A DNA stretch of 38,114 bases from Pseudomonadota bacterium (lineage in GTDB: Bacteria; Pseudomonadota; Gammaproteobacteria; Burkholderiales; Burkholderiaceae_C), in assembly GCA_021808405.1 (NCBI GenBank), contig JAKBBQ010000005.1, positions 1-38,114 on the forward strand. Reading direction: 5' to 3'. Under the pieces are notes generated by a model, which made no database searches, had not been told where the DNA came from, and saw nothing but the letters and a program-made list of their open reading frames with translations. This document shows positions 25,028 to 30,926 of this stretch, piece by piece. A program made the position numbers and the translations under genes. How positions within the stretch are numbered: position 1 is the first letter of the stretch; each line of letters begins with the position of its first letter.

Positions 25028-26428
25028 CTACCGCGGCGCCTCGGCGCCAGCGTCGTGGCGGGGCTGCGCGCCCGCCAGGCCGTGGCGCTCCATCATGCGG
25101 TACAGCGTGGCGCGCGACACCCCGAGGTCGCGCGCCGCCCGCGCCACGACATGGCCGTTGCGCTCCAGCGCCGCGTGGATGGCGTCGCTGGTGGCCCGAC
25201 CGAGCGCGGCGTCCAGCCCGCCGCGGGCAGGCTCGGCCCGGCCGTCCGCGGCCTCCAGGCCCAGGTCGGCGACTCCGATGCGGCCACTCTCGCACAGCAC
25301 GATGGCGCGCCGCACCCGGTTGATCAGCTCGCGGATGTTGCCGGGCCATTCGTGCGCCAGCAGGGCGTCGCGTACGCCCTCGTCGAAGCCTTCGATCGGG
25401 TGGCGCGCCTCGCCGCGGTAGCGCTGCAGCGCGTACTGCGCCAGCAGCAGCACGTCGTCGCCGCGCTCGCGCAGCGCCGGCACCTGCAGCTCGATGACGC
25501 ACAGCCGGTGGTACAGGTCGGTGCGGAAGCGTGCGGCCCGCTGGGCCTGCAGCAGGTCGACATGGGTGGCGGACAGGATGCGCACGTCCACTGCGATCGG
25601 GCTGTGTCCGCCCAGGCGCTCGACCTGCCCTTCCTGCAGGAAACGCAGCAGCCCGACCTGGGCATCGAGCGGCAGGTCGCCGATTTCGTCGAGCAGCAAG
25701 GTGCCGCCGCCGGCTGCCTCGATGCGCCCGATCCGCCGCTGCGCGGCTCCGGTGAAGGCGCCCTTTTCGTGGCCGAACAACTCGGACTGCAACAAGTGCG
25801 CGGGCACCGCGCCGCAATTGATCGCGACGAATGGCTTGTCGCGCCGCGCCGACAGCCGGTGGATCGCCTGGGCCACCAGTTCCTTGCCGACCCCGGTCTC
25901 GCCGGTGATCAGTACCGCGGCGTCGGTCGCCGCGACCCGCTCGAGTCGCGCCTCGAGGCGCTGCATCGCCGGGCTGGCTCCGATGAATGGGCCGGGCCCG
26001 GTCGCGCGGGGCACGGCCGGCTCGCCGCCCACTTGCTCGATCAGCCGCAGGCGGCGCCGCAGGCTGTCCAGGGACAGCCTCAGCACGGCCTCGGGGACGG
26101 GGTCGCGCAAGGTGTCGATGCAATAGCGCAGCGAGAGTTCGGCCAGTTCGCCGCGCTGCCCGGCCGCGCCGCCCTGCACGCACAGGCCGCGGATGCGAGG
26201 CTGCGCCAGCTCGGCGCCCAGCGCGCGCAGCAGCGCCGGGTCGTCGATGTCGCGCAGGTCCAGCAGCACGCCGCACACCCGCCCCGGCTGTTCGCGCAGC
26301 GCCTGCCGCAGCGCCGGCAGGTCCGGCACCTCCCGCAACGCGAAGCCCGCGTCGCCGATCGCGGCACGCCAGCACGGGCCGGCCGGCGCTCCAAACAACA
26401 GCAGGCGGATCGGATCGCCCTCGGACAT
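25028..26428 (-). CDS. Sigma-54-dependent transcriptional activator, VpsR-like, Fis-type HTH
   Basis: AAA+ core [53 protein letters not shown]-terminal [26 protein letters not shown]; atypical receiver-like N-terminus. Confidence 0.93.
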
Positions 26429-26535: not shown

Positions 26536-26590
26536 GGGTGTCGCAACGTCGACACAGCGTACGCCGAGGTGTCTCGGCGCTGCGACACCC
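26536..26590. promoter_or_regulatory. Paired upstream activator palindromes
   Basis: Site 1 GTGTCG-N6-CGACAC (26538-26555); site 2 GGTGTC-N10-GACACC (26568-26589); outer IR GGGTGTCGCA (26536-26545) / TGCGACACCC (26581-26590). Confidence 0.65.
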
Positions 26591-26663: not shown

Positions 26664-26679
26664 TGGCACGGATTTCGCA
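26664..26679 (+). promoter_or_regulatory. Sigma-54 (-24/-12) promoter
   Basis: TGGCACG-gatt-TCGCA versus consensus TGGCACG-N4-TTGCA: full -24 element, one mismatch at -12, GG-N10-GC spacing. Confidence 0.85.
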
Positions 26680-26718: not shown

Positions 26719-27333
26719 ATGCCAGCACTGCCCACGTCGATTGCACTGCGCACCGCCTTCGCCGCCTGCGCGGCCCTGGCCGGGCTGCTCGGCAACGCGC
26801 GCGCCGGGCAGACGGCGCTGGTCGAGCCCGGGGCCGGCGCGCACAGCGCCGGCCACGTCGCGCTCAATGTCGCCGCCGGGGTGGGCAACGTCCAGCTCAA
26901 CCAGGCCGCGCTGGCGCCCACCGGCACCGCCGGCGCGACCCTCGAACAAGCGGCCAGCGGCAGCGCAGCCGGCGCGAGCCTGCGCAGCAGCGTGGGAGCC
27001 GGCGCCTTCGCCGGCTCCAGCGGGCTGCTGGCCGTCAACGAGGCCAGCGGCGCGGCCAACCTTCAATCGAACATCGCGCTCTTCGGAGCGCACACCCACG
27101 TCGGGATCGCCAGTGACGGCCAACTGGCCACAGCGCTCCCACGTCCGGCGCCGGGCGCAGGCCCTGCCCCATCGACCGTCAGCAGGATCGTCTCGATCGA
27201 TCCCGGCGCCTTCCACGGCGCCACGGGCCTGGTGCAGGTCAACCAGACGGCCGGCTCCGGCAACTCCACCGGCAACGCCTTCATGTTGCAACTGCCGGGT
27301 TCTTCCTTGAGCAATTTCAGGAGCATTCCATGA
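26719..27333 (+). CDS. Secreted repeat protein, Fap-like amyloid subunit (minor/nucleator candidate)
   Basis: Signal peptide [29 protein letters not shown]; repeats [85 protein letters not shown] upstream of ATG 26719. Confidence 0.75.
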
Positions 27334-28148
27334 ACACTCGATTCACTGCCAGGATCGCCGCCGTCGCGGTCGCTGCACTGTTCGCCGGGGGCGCTGCGTA
27401 TGCGAGCGGCCCCGGGGACCACGACGGGCCAGGCCATGGCGACCAGGGTGGCGTCGTCGTCAAGGGGCTGATCACCGTCAACGCCGCCGCCGGCGCCAGC
27501 ACCAACAATGTGCAGAACACCGGCAACGCAGCGGTAGGGCCGTCGTCGATGGACATGGGTTCGGGCATGGGCTCGGGCATGGGCTCGGGCAACGGCCACA
27601 ACCCGCCGCCCAGCCAGGGTCCGAACATGAACTCCACCATCGGCAACAACGCCGGCCAGAACGCCAGCGGCAACATCGCGTTGAACTCGGCCGCCGGCAT
27701 GCAGAACCTGCAGGCCAATGACGCGTCGGTCGCCCGCATCGCGGCGCAAAGCGTGTTCGGCAGCGCCAGCGTCGCCAACCTGCAGGGCGCCTCCGGCAAC
27801 TCGATGGGTTCGGGCGGCCCGTTCGGCAGCTTCTCGACCAACGCCGCGCTGGGCGACAACGCGCTGCACGGCGCGTCGGGCAACATCGCGGTGAACGTCG
27901 CGGCAGGCGTGGGCAACGCCCAGTCGAACGGCATGGCGATCACCCAGAGCGCCAACCCGACGCTGGCGCTGGCCACCGCCACCAGCGTGCAGCAGGCCGG
28001 CGGCAACATCGAGCAGGGCAGCTTCACCAACACCGCGGCGATCGGCGGCAACGCGCTGATGGGCGCCTCGGGCAACATCGGCGTCAACGTGGCCTCGGGG
28101 GTCGGCAACCTGCAGCACAACGGGTTGTCGATGATCGTCGCGCCTTGA
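27330..28148 (+). CDS. Secreted repeat protein, Fap-like major amyloid subunit (FapB/FapC-type)
   Basis: Signal peptide; repeats [84 protein letters not shown] match the remembered Fap repeat style (GNIGVNVAAGxxNxQxN). Confidence 0.8.
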   Translation: MNTRFTARIAAVAVAALFAGGAAYASGPGDHDGPGHGDQGGVVVKGLITVNAAAGASTNNVQNTGNAAVGPSSMDMGSGMGSGMGSGNGHNPPPSQGPNMNSTIGNNAGQNASGNIALNSAAGMQNLQANDASVARIAAQSVFGSASVANLQGASGNSMGSGGPFGSFSTNAALGDNALHGASGNIAVNVAAGVGNAQSNGMAITQSANPTLALATATSVQQAGGNIEQGSFTNTAAIGGNALMGASGNIGVNVASGVGNLQHNGLSMIVAP

Positions 28149-28162
28149 GGCTCGGAGCGGCC

Positions 28163-28888
28163 ATGCGCGCAAGCCTCGCAGCGTTCCGGCCGAAGGCCGG
28201 GCGTCGCGCGCCGCGCGTCGCGTGGCTGGCCGCCGCGCTGCTCGCACTCGGCGTGCGGGCGGTCGCGGCGGCCCAGTTGCTCCCGGTACCGGGGCTGCTG
28301 GTCTCCAGCGACATGCAGGGTCTGCGCGCGCTGCGCTACGCCAACATGGTCGCGCAGCAGCGCGACTACAGCTGCGGAGCAGCGGCACTGGCCACGCTGC
28401 TCGACTACGGCTACGGCTATCGCCTCAGCGAGACCCAGGCCATCGAGGCCATGATGCGGCATGTCGCCCAGCCTGCCGAGGTGCTGCGCAACGGATTCTC
28501 GATGCTCGACATGAAGCGCTATGTCGAAAGCCTGGGCATGCATGCGGTCGGCTTCGACGTCAACCTGGCTGCGATGCGCCGCCTGCGCATCCCGGTGATC
28601 GCGCTGCTCGATGTCGACGGCTACAGCCACTTCGTGGTGGTCAAGAAGGTCGACCACGACCTGGTGTTCCTCAGCGATCCCGCGCTGGGCCAACGCGCGA
28701 TCGACGTCGACACCTTCGCGCGCGACTGGCACGGCCTGGTGCTGGCGGTGATCGGCAGGCCCTTCCTCGCCGACTCGCCGCTCTTGCGGGACAACGTCTC
28801 GCGGGCCCGCGCTGCCCGCGGCTCGCTGCTGCACCAGGCGGTCGCGCCGCGGCTGGACTTCGGCATCCCGCGCGTCGGGACCTTCTGA
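28163..28888 (+). CDS. C39-family peptidase, FapD-like
   Basis: QQRDYSCGAAALATLLDYGYGY (catalytic Cys), GYSHFVVVKKVDHDLVFLSDPALG (His/Asp); N-terminal hydrophobic signal. ORF open from TTG 28145. Confidence 0.85.
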   Translation: MRASLAAFRPKAGRRAPRVAWLAAALLALGVRAVAAAQLLPVPGLLVSSDMQGLRALRYANMVAQQRDYSCGAAALATLLDYGYGYRLSETQAIEAMMRHVAQPAEVLRNGFSMLDMKRYVESLGMHAVGFDVNLAAMRRLRIPVIALLDVDGYSHFVVVKKVDHDLVFLSDPALGQRAIDVDTFARDWHGLVLAVIGRPFLADSPLLRDNVSRARAARGSLLHQAVAPRLDFGIPRVGTF

Positions 28889-28935
28889 AATTCCGATCCG
28901 CATTTCCCTCTCCCTTCCTGCCATCGAGGTGTCCC

Positions 28936-29652
28936 ATGCGCCGATTCCTTCCTTGCGCGGCCCTGCTCGGACTGGGCCTGGCCTGCACCGCCCGCGCTGA
29001 GACGGCGGTCCCCCGCATCGTCGCGCTGGACGACGCCCAGCTGGCGCAGGCGCGCGGCCGCGGGCTTCCGGCGGGCCAGGCCATCACCGGCTTCCAGCTC
29101 CAGCTGGTTTCGACCTGGAGCGCCCCGCAAGGCGCTGTGGGCGCGGCCGGCACGGTGCAGGTCGAAGGCCTCGGCGGCGGCCAGCCCAGCGTGCGGGTAG
29201 CGGGCCAGGCCTCGGGCAGCGGAGCGCCGGGGGGCGGCGGGACGGGCAGCGCCGGCGGCACGCTGCAGGTGCAGGGGGTCGGCCAGCTGACCCAGGTCGC
29301 AGGCGACGCCAACCAGGGCTACAACCACTTCACCCTGCGACTGGTCGACGCCTCCGCGGGCCTGCCGGCGCTATCCGCCGGCCCGCCCAGCGCGTCGTAT
29401 GCCGGCCAGGGAACCAGCGCCAGCGTCGCAGGCGACGGCCATGGCGGCCTGGTCGTCGCCATCTCGACGCCGGCGGGCTCGGCGCTGCAATCGGTGGGCG
29501 GCCTGGGCTCCTTCACCCAGGCGCTGCGCATCGTCGGCAACGGGCAGAGGGTGGACAACAGCGCGATGCTCACCGTGCTCACCCGCAGCGCGCCGGGACT
29601 CGGCGCCGCCGGACTGCTGACCACCCTGCAGAACATGATTCCCCGCCACTGA
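28936..29652 (+). CDS. Secreted Gly/Ala-rich protein, FapE-like
   Basis: Signal peptide MRRFLPCAALLGLGLACTARA; position between C39 peptidase and outer-membrane channel, as fapE lies between fapD and fapF. Assignment mainly by synteny. Confidence 0.6.
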   Translation: MRRFLPCAALLGLGLACTARAETAVPRIVALDDAQLAQARGRGLPAGQAITGFQLQLVSTWSAPQGAVGAAGTVQVEGLGGGQPSVRVAGQASGSGAPGGGGTGSAGGTLQVQGVGQLTQVAGDANQGYNHFTLRLVDASAGLPALSAGPPSASYAGQGTSASVAGDGHGGLVVAISTPAGSALQSVGGLGSFTQALRIVGNGQRVDNSAMLTVLTRSAPGLGAAGLLTTLQNMIPRH

Positions 29653-29660
29653 GCCCACCG

Positions 29661-30926
29661 ATGAGACCCGCACGACTGGCCGCCAGCGCGGCACCGCTGT
29701 TCCTGTGCCTGCTCGGCAACGCGCTCGCCGATGCGCCGCCCGACGCCGATGCGCTGGCGCGCCTGCAGCAGCAGGTGCAGGAGCTCACGCGTCGCGTCGC
29801 GCAGCAGCAGCAGGAGATCGTCGACTTGCGCGCGCGCATGCCGGGGCAGCCCGAGCAGCAGGCCGCGGCACAGCCCGGCCCGCCCCCCGCGCCCGCCCCG
29901 CAGGCCCTTGCGGCAGCGCCCGCGCAAGCCGCGCCGCCGCTGGCCACCTCGCGCCAGGACGCCGCCTCCGAGGCGGCGCAAAGCCCCGCCGAGGTCGCCG
30001 CGCAGGGGCACGCGCCCCAGTTCCAGCACCGGCTGACCCTGACCGCCGGCTGGAACGACACCTACTACGACCGCCGGCAGCTCGCGCTCAGCGGCTTCCT
30101 GGCGCTCGACGCCATCTTCCTGGGCAACATCTCGGTGGCGCAGACCAAGGCGCATGTCGAGACCTTCGACCTGGCCGTGCAGTACGGCCTGAGCGACGAC
30201 CTCGCGCTCGACTTCGACCTGCCCTACGTCCTGCGCAACAGCCGCTTCCTCAGCGCCGGGCAGAACGCCTCGACGTCGGCGATCAGCGAGGCCTCGGTGA
30301 CCAACGCCGACGTCGGCGACATCAGCTTCGGTGCCGATTACCGGCTGATCCGCGAGCACGGCGACATCCCCGACGTGGTCGCATCGCTGAAGGTCACCGC
30401 GCCGACCGGCACTTCGCCCTTCGGCATCGCCGTGGTGCAGCCCGACCCGCAGAACACCAACCTGCAGGTCCCCCAGCGCCTGCCCACCGGCAACGGAGTG
30501 TGGACCGTCAACCCCAGCGTGTCGGTGCTCAAGAGCCGAGACCCGGTGGTGCTGTTCGGCAACATCGGCTATGTCTACAACCTGGCGCGCGACGTGGCGG
30601 TGATCAACCCGGCCTCGATCGACGGCCCGGGGCGGGTCAAGCTGGGCGACGGCATCCAGCTGGGTGGCGGCTTCGCGGTGGTGCTCAACGATCGCGCGTC
30701 GATCAGCACCAGCCTCGCCGCCCTGTTCTCCCGCGCCACCGAGGTGCGTCTGCCCGGCCAGGGCTGGCAGGCCGTCCACGGCAGCGCCAGCGCCAACGTC
30801 TCGCTGGGCTTCGGGCTGAACTACGCGCTCAGCCGCCACCTCACGCTCAGCGCCACGCTGCAGGCCGGGCTGACCCCGGATGCGCCCAACTACGCGCTGT
30901 CCATCCGCTTTCCCTACGTGTTCTGA
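29661..30926 (+). CDS. Outer-membrane beta-barrel transporter with N-terminal coiled coil, FapF-like
   Basis: Signal peptide, LARLQQQVQELTRRVAQQQQEIVDLRARM coiled coil, amphipathic strands, C-terminal ...YALSIRFPYVF (terminal aromatic). Confidence 0.82.
   Translation: MRPARLAASAAPLFLCLLGNALADAPPDADALARLQQQVQELTRRVAQQQQEIVDLRARMPGQPEQQAAAQPGPPPAPAPQALAAAPAQAAPPLATSRQDAASEAAQSPAEVAAQGHAPQFQHRLTLTAGWNDTYYDRRQLALSGFLALDAIFLGNISVAQTKAHVETFDLAVQYGLSDDLALDFDLPYVLRNSRFLSAGQNASTSAISEASVTNADVGDISFGADYRLIREHGDIPDVVASLKVTAPTGTSPFGIAVVQPDPQNTNLQVPQRLPTGNGVWTVNPSVSVLKSRDPVVLFGNIGYVYNLARDVAVINPASIDGPGRVKLGDGIQLGGGFAVVLNDRASISTSLAALFSRATEVRLPGQGWQAVHGSASANVSLGFGLNYALSRHLTLSATLQAGLTPDAPNYALSIRFPYVF

Follow-up and report, generated by a model that had tools for sequence, protein, structure and literature searches.

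A fapA-less Fap operon in a Burkholderiales lineage and a predicted leader site for FapD in FapE

Gene content and identity of the fap locus

The window analysed here, a 38,114-nucleotide stretch of contig JAKBBQ010000005.1 (assembly GCA_021808405.1, positions 1 to 38,114), carries on its forward strand five closely packed genes, all with intact frames (26719-30926), that almost certainly constitute a true functional-amyloid operon of the Fap system, with the fapA-less gene set fapBCDEF. The best NCBIfam matches run FapB, FapC, FapD, FapE and FapF in gene order, the order of Pseudomonas, and both FapF and FapC find counterparts in the PDB. A preliminary description of the same DNA had proposed a Fap-type amyloid locus with the order B/C-D-E-F, and both points are borne out; the search with hidden Markov models of the FapA to FapF families that it had suggested returned FapB to FapF in order and no FapA.

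The two secreted repeat proteins of that description correspond to FapB and FapC, each with a signal peptide and three Fap repeats. The predicted nucleator gene fapB (26719-27333; NCBIfam FapB, 1.1e-16) encodes repeats of 17 residues at 26851-26901, 27022-27072 and 27226-27276. In fapC (27330-28148; NCBIfam FapC, 1.4e-17), which encodes the predicted major amyloid subunit, devoid of Cys, they lie at 27669-27719 (GNIALNSAAGMQNLQAN), 27879-27929 (17 residues) and 28071-28121 (GNIGVNVASGVGNLQHN). The repeat pattern GX4NX3GX6N occurs exactly three times in each protein, a count reached by 0 (FapB) and 3 (FapC) of 20,000 shuffles, and one that agrees with the published rule of three per protein (PMC12822426). 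FapC also matches the FapC fibre structures 9u4u (E 3.4e-14) and 9nqd (E 1.6e-13).

The third gene, fapD (28163-28888; NCBIfam FapD, 1.3e-52; Pfam Peptidase_C39, 2.9e-23), encodes a predicted Sec-exported C39 cysteine peptidase. Its catalytic codons are those for Cys (28373-28375), His (28628-28630) and Asp (28676-28678), and the three residues are unchanged across 21 aligned FapD sequences, in agreement with the C39 peptidase with Cys/His/Asp described previously. The FapE-like protein was likewise recovered, both by its own score and by a genome-level match, as the product of fapE (28936-29652; NCBIfam FapE, 1.2e-17, below the equivalog cut-off), a leader-bearing minor subunit. The coiled-coil beta-barrel channel is encoded by fapF (29661-30926), the predicted outer-membrane export channel, which matches the full-length NCBIfam FapF model (3.9e-99) and, over residues 103-421, the solved FapF structures 5o65, 5o67 and 5o68 (E ~1e-68); its N-terminal periplasmic coiled coil was recognised by eye from the sequence, not by computation.

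A leader motif in FapE as the predicted FapD target

Substrates of C39 peptidases carry a double-glycine leader of the pattern L-S-x-x-E-L-x-x-I-x-G-G. Directly behind the signal peptide of the window FapE, residues 31-42 (LDDAQLAQARGR; 29026-29061, forward strand) form a motif of this kind with Arg for the final Gly, which comparison designates as the predicted FapD recognition site, with the predicted cut after GR, between LDDAQLAQARGR and the following G. A Pseudomonas FapE offers an example of the same arrangement, with the predicted cut between LSDQELSQLRGR and F. When FapE sequences are aligned, the segment behind the signal peptide reads PIELKDQELAQLRGRYVMPGR or VELSDQELSQLRGRFVMPGR in Pseudomonas, VDDDVLAHQTGKY in Burkholderiaceae, LSDEELGGLRGRY in other Gammaproteobacteria and LDDAQLAQARGRG in the window, and positions -12, -11, -8, -7, -4 and -2 fit the double-glycine pattern.

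Among FapE sequences clustered at 70% identity, 48 of 55 carry the leader, against 0.25 expected from shuffles; as the pattern was drawn up after inspection of FapE sequences, this contrast describes conservation and is no blind test. Of the seven FapE without the motif, at least four had lost their leader to trimming by the script. Position -1 is Arg or Lys in all 48 matching proteins, the pattern having permitted G, R or K. In the non-redundant sets of the other proteins the same motif is absent from FapB (0/56), FapC (0/41) and FapD (0/28), and just 6 of 12,212 other open reading frames (ORFs) of the same loci show it behind a signal-like stretch; these six include two leader proteins of the cousin operons considered below, a small secreted LWDE protein of genome G044 and one duplicate FapE. 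The AlphaFold2 model of FapE is beta-rich (mean predicted local distance difference test score, pLDDT, 72) and presents the leader as a short helix that a low-confidence linker joins to a beta domain. Fold comparison of FapE with the PDB gave no match better than E 0.2.

On the enzyme side, the closest folds to the FapD model are the double-glycine peptidases PCAT1, ComA and 6mpz. In Pseudomonas, secretion requires FapD and FapE, and the catalytic Cys of FapD is essential (PMC5557850). Although FapD is essential for amyloid secretion, authors writing in 2017 and 2018 regarded its target as unclear, and canonical C39 sites were described as missing from the Fap proteins (PMC5557850); in 2025 FapD was still only "thought to" process FapE and FapF (PMC12822426).

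More distantly related operons also encode FapD-like enzymes (L014-L016, L187-L204). These cousin operons consist of a FapD-like C39 peptidase flanked by secreted proteins with RGG leaders, a FapF-like channel and a BrfA-like activator; those at L014-L016 also encode a very long Gly/Asn-rich FapC-like protein. Their small secreted neighbours carry the canonical leader, as in VPDSTLAQMRGG with F after the cut, and those tested matched no NCBIfam model. Leaders of the RG[GR] type occur in same-strand neighbours of the FapD-like genes at 16 of 21 cousin loci and in none on the opposite strand; two of the 21 repeat a counted locus, which leaves 14 of 19 distinct loci. Position -1 is mostly G in these proteins, in contrast to the Arg or Lys of FapE, so that the Fap branch is one with Arg/Lys at P1 where the cousin operons keep Gly. 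No residues of the peptidase could be picked out as tracking GG versus GR leaders, the differences between the two groups of enzymes being too numerous.

Considering the leader, the invariant triad and the cousin operons together, FapD is probably a periplasmic leader peptidase that acts on FapE and cuts after G-[R/K], a function deduced from comparison of sequences. In its favour, too, N-terminal peptides of FapE were missing from whole-cell mass spectra of Pseudomonas sp. UK4 (PMC5557850). Two considerations weigh against this assignment. Characterised C39 peptidases cut after Gly-Gly/Ala, unlike the Arg/Lys at P1 here, and the published FapE gap (~70 residues) exceeds the length of the leader (PMC5557850). 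Both features would suit a docking element instead, bound by FapD or FapF in the manner of the inactive C39-like domains that bind RTX substrates, with any processing of FapE occurring elsewhere. In most Burkholderiaceae the FapF coiled coil ends in a related motif, one residue shorter and with processing not directly shown (PMC6173800), which is also in line with docking. Nonetheless, this alternative appears unlikely given that secretion requires the FapD Cys (PMC5557850), that the catalytic triad is invariant and that the cousin operons retain canonical RGG leaders.

The FapF motif itself, LEMAQRGRG, is near-universal at the coiled-coil end of Burkholderiaceae FapF, and was not found in FapF of Pseudomonas or of the window. 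FapF was rejected as a general FapD substrate on account of the shorter spacing, of this absence and of the strict leader motif occurring in just 1 of 32 non-redundant FapF; it is retained as a lineage-specific possibility. At the corresponding segment (29751-29840), the window FapF, likewise that of the same-genus locus L018, is without the RG[RK]G common in Burkholderiaceae. Pseudomonas FapA carries ELSDxDFAxVxSG; peptides were found throughout FapA in UK4 (PMC5557850), and FapA may therefore not be cut.

At the C-terminus of FapD (28859-28888 in the window) about 100 loci share a conserved [DE][FY/H]G tail with Phe, occasionally Leu, as last residue, and in Pseudomonas the tail (DAELMEFGFIQSDFF) looks like the FapE leader. 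A pseudosubstrate role for it (Pseudomonas DAELMEFGF) was considered and dropped because AlphaFold2 places the tail at pLDDT <50.

If the assignment to FapD is true, the nearly universal FapE leader provides a precise predicted cut site, giving both the site and the consensus for the FapD substrate, and FapD becomes a periplasmic relative of the bacteriocin leader peptidases. In its general form, the proposal is that FapD-type enzymes probably make up a class of periplasmic, transporter-free leader peptidases of the double-glycine type. Such enzymes would act on FapE as their conserved substrate, with cleavage behind L-[SDT]-D-x-E-L-x-x-L-R-G-[RK], and many lineages would add the LWDE protein (LDDQxLxxQRGG) as a second one. 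No description of the leader motif was found in the openly searchable literature, which excludes subscription papers and preprints, and priority is thus not certain.

Activator, promoter and probable c-di-GMP control

Divergent from fapB, on the reverse strand, lies the gene for a BrfA-like sigma-54 activator (25028-26428) with an AAA+ domain bearing GAFTGA (Sigma54_activat, 1.5e-67) and a Fis-type helix-turn-helix (HTH_8, 2e-8). Its N-terminal domain is a degenerate VpsR-type one (Pfam VpsR, E 0.16), and the VpsR-like label given to it earlier stands by relatedness: the window copy scores 12.2 bits, below the Pfam cut-off of 23.7, and a same-genus copy (L017) 20.7, while seven other fap-linked activators reach 37-78 bits, the domain being above cut-off in 7 of 8 relatives tested. 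The protein is 39-42% identical to the activators beside Pseudomonadaceae fap operons. Among relatives whose contig extends far enough, nearly all have such an activator adjoining fap (Burkholderiaceae, other Gammaproteobacteria and 19 of 20 Pseudomonadaceae loci), in positions that vary between upstream and convergent downstream. Both occur within the window genus, where the activator is divergent upstream of fapB in the window and L018 and convergent downstream of fapF in L017 and L020.

A sigma-54 (-24/-12) promoter, TGGCACGGATTTCGCA (26664-26679, forward strand), is placed 40 bp upstream of fapB. This box is the sole match with at most one mismatch in the window, where ~0.46 would be expected by chance, and its weight comes from conservation across related loci: boxes of at least 11/12 stand upstream of fap, on the fap strand, in 69 of 115 related loci (kin, and hence not independent), whereas only 81 such boxes turn up overall when both strands of the loci (2.03 Mb; 4.05 Mb scanned) are taken together. 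RpoN is encoded in the window genome. Two candidate activator-binding (enhancer) palindromes, GTGTCGCAACGTCGACAC (26538-26555) and GTGTCTCGGCGCTGCGACAC (26569-26588), lie 76-126 bp before the box and are the only sites of the form GTGTC-N4-14-GACAC in the window; the second belongs to a 21-nt inverted repeat that is 86% complementary.

Two relatives show a direct link from the synthesis of cyclic di-GMP (c-di-GMP) to fap. In G044, a PAS-GGDEF diguanylate cyclase gene separates fapE from fapF within the operon (L010:6963-7889), and in the same-genus G018 a GGDEF diguanylate cyclase gene sits directly upstream of fapB (L013/L017; L017:4215-5366). BrfA of P. fluorescens is a c-di-GMP sensor that activates fapA (PMC13101488), its responsiveness to c-di-GMP having been shown (PMC13101488, PMC9207406), and in strain PF07 brfA is convergent downstream of fap (PMC9207406). 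In view of the related activators, the conserved box, the GGDEF genes and the published BrfA, c-di-GMP control of the window fap genes is likely. Residues of the FleQ type for c-di-GMP were not clearly conserved in the activator alignment, and no claim was made from them.

The sub-cut-off VpsR domain of the window activator counts against such control, its predicted c-di-GMP binding leaning on BrfA, and this divergence would fit an activator answering some other signal. We consider this improbable, however, as the activator is of the same kind as those beside Pseudomonadaceae fap, BrfA occupies such a position in PF07, and the fap loci of the two relatives mentioned above include diguanylate cyclase genes.

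Absence of FapA and the LWDE family

The preliminary description had seen no clear FapA, and a search of the whole assembly with the NCBIfam FapA model likewise came up empty. That model by itself was rejected as proof of absence, being insensitive outside Pseudomonas: it matched 3 of 369 genomes of the class, compared with 16 for NCBIfam FapE. A broader profile, A4, was therefore built from 13 diverse FapA sequences. It detected the control genomes G544 (2.9e-36) and G225 (7.0e-27), whose FapA or near relatives belong to the profile, and found no FapA in the window genome or in the three fap-bearing genomes of the same genus. Because the window assembly consists of 396 contigs at 97.7% completeness, a FapA gene may lie on a lost contig.

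The earlier view of the locus as a reduced variant holds insofar as fapA is missing, and it overstated the novelty: operons of fapBCDEF alone are standard, being the commonest published deviation from the Fap gene set, reported in 6 of 16 genera (PMC3792158), and over 90% of the 1602 clusters in a published catalogue are either fapABCDEF or fapBCDEF (PMC12822426).

A family of small secreted proteins, here called LWDE, accompanies fap in Burkholderiaceae and other Gammaproteobacteria (L064:3593-4204, L119:3864-4196, L010:3410-3754, and similar). Its members show a leader-like LDDQxLxxQRGG or LSESHLAEVYGKG, followed by a C-terminal VxLWDE; those of Burkholderiaceae carry LDDQxLSRQRGG. In Burkholderiaceae the gene separates the activator from fapA, and in G044 and G400 it precedes fapB. 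No LWDE protein emerged when a profile was run against the window genome and a single Pseudomonadaceae genome. In Pandoraea loci (L021:10450-11004, L035:9861-10364, others), an extra small ORF that follows fapF, but on the other strand, weakly matches the LWDE profile.

Proposed mechanism

Taken together, the window very probably holds a fapA-less Fap operon under sigma-54/BrfA-VpsR control, whose FapD probably cuts the FapE leader. The operon would be driven from the sigma-54 promoter by the divergent BrfA/VpsR-type activator, probably switched on at high c-di-GMP. FapB (nucleator), FapC (fibre), FapD, FapE and FapF would then cross the inner membrane by Sec, as the signal peptides in their sequences suggest, with FapF, from its homology to the solved FapF, serving as the outer-membrane export pore. 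Periplasmic FapD would recognise the FapE leader and cut after its G-[R/K]; mature FapE would in turn permit export of FapC and FapB through FapF, in that presumed order of events, and FapC would polymerise outside the cell as a biofilm amyloid.

Some observations speak against the Fap identity and function proposed. All five window proteins score below the NCBIfam equivalog cut-offs, as is nonetheless expected at such distance because these cut-offs are tuned to Pseudomonas. Every genome outside Pseudomonadaceae searched with the Fap models likewise scored under them, and the FapE cut-off was passed by Pseudomonadaceae FapE and by no genome in the wider class sample. (A Pseudomonadaceae genome was located through RsmY, which served no other purpose; no FapE was found in the genus of that genome, and FapE is present in its family.) Moreover, fapF is present in only 4 of 28 genomes of the window genus, and Fap function in the window organism is read from sequence. 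That the window genes are a degenerate or non-functional remnant, as this scarcity and the failure of profiles to find FapA and the LWDE protein could suggest, is nevertheless very improbable in the face of five intact frames, an intact promoter, conserved catalytic residues and three repeats, and of three same-genus relatives that keep fap at ~53-71% protein identity.

Comparison with known systems

With Pseudomonas fapABCDEF the window operon shares the B-C-D-E-F order, three repeats in both FapB and FapC, a C39 FapD, the FapE leader, the FapF channel and a neighbouring sigma-54 activator, while it differs in being without fapA and without CxxC in FapC, and in having its activator divergent upstream rather than convergent downstream. 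The fapA-less fapBCDEF operons already published (PMC3792158, PMC12822426) have the same genes in the same order, and no essential difference from them was found. The locus is thus ordinary, another fapBCDEF operon, in this case from a metagenome-assembled lineage of Burkholderiales.

FilB and FilC of the putative Fil pilus system (NCBIfam NF050078, NF050079) are weaker homologues of FapD and FapF; the window proteins match the FapD and FapF models with far higher scores. As in PCAT1 and ComA, FapD displays the C39 fold and catalytic residues, together with a presumed substrate leader of the form L-S-x-x-E-L-x-x-L-x-G; on the contrary, it is a free, Sec-exported enzyme with no fusion to an ABC transporter, and FapE has a basic residue at -1. 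Viral contigs were also searched, with no FapF relative found.

BrfA of PF07 (PMC9207406, PMC13101488) resembles the window activator in being an enhancer-binding protein beside fap with a -24/-12 promoter, although the VpsR domain has diverged in the window, and the ~40% identity was measured against Pseudomonadaceae fap-side activators, not against PF07 BrfA. In this respect the locus would extend BrfA-type sigma-54 control of Fap, with conserved promoters, well beyond Pseudomonas.

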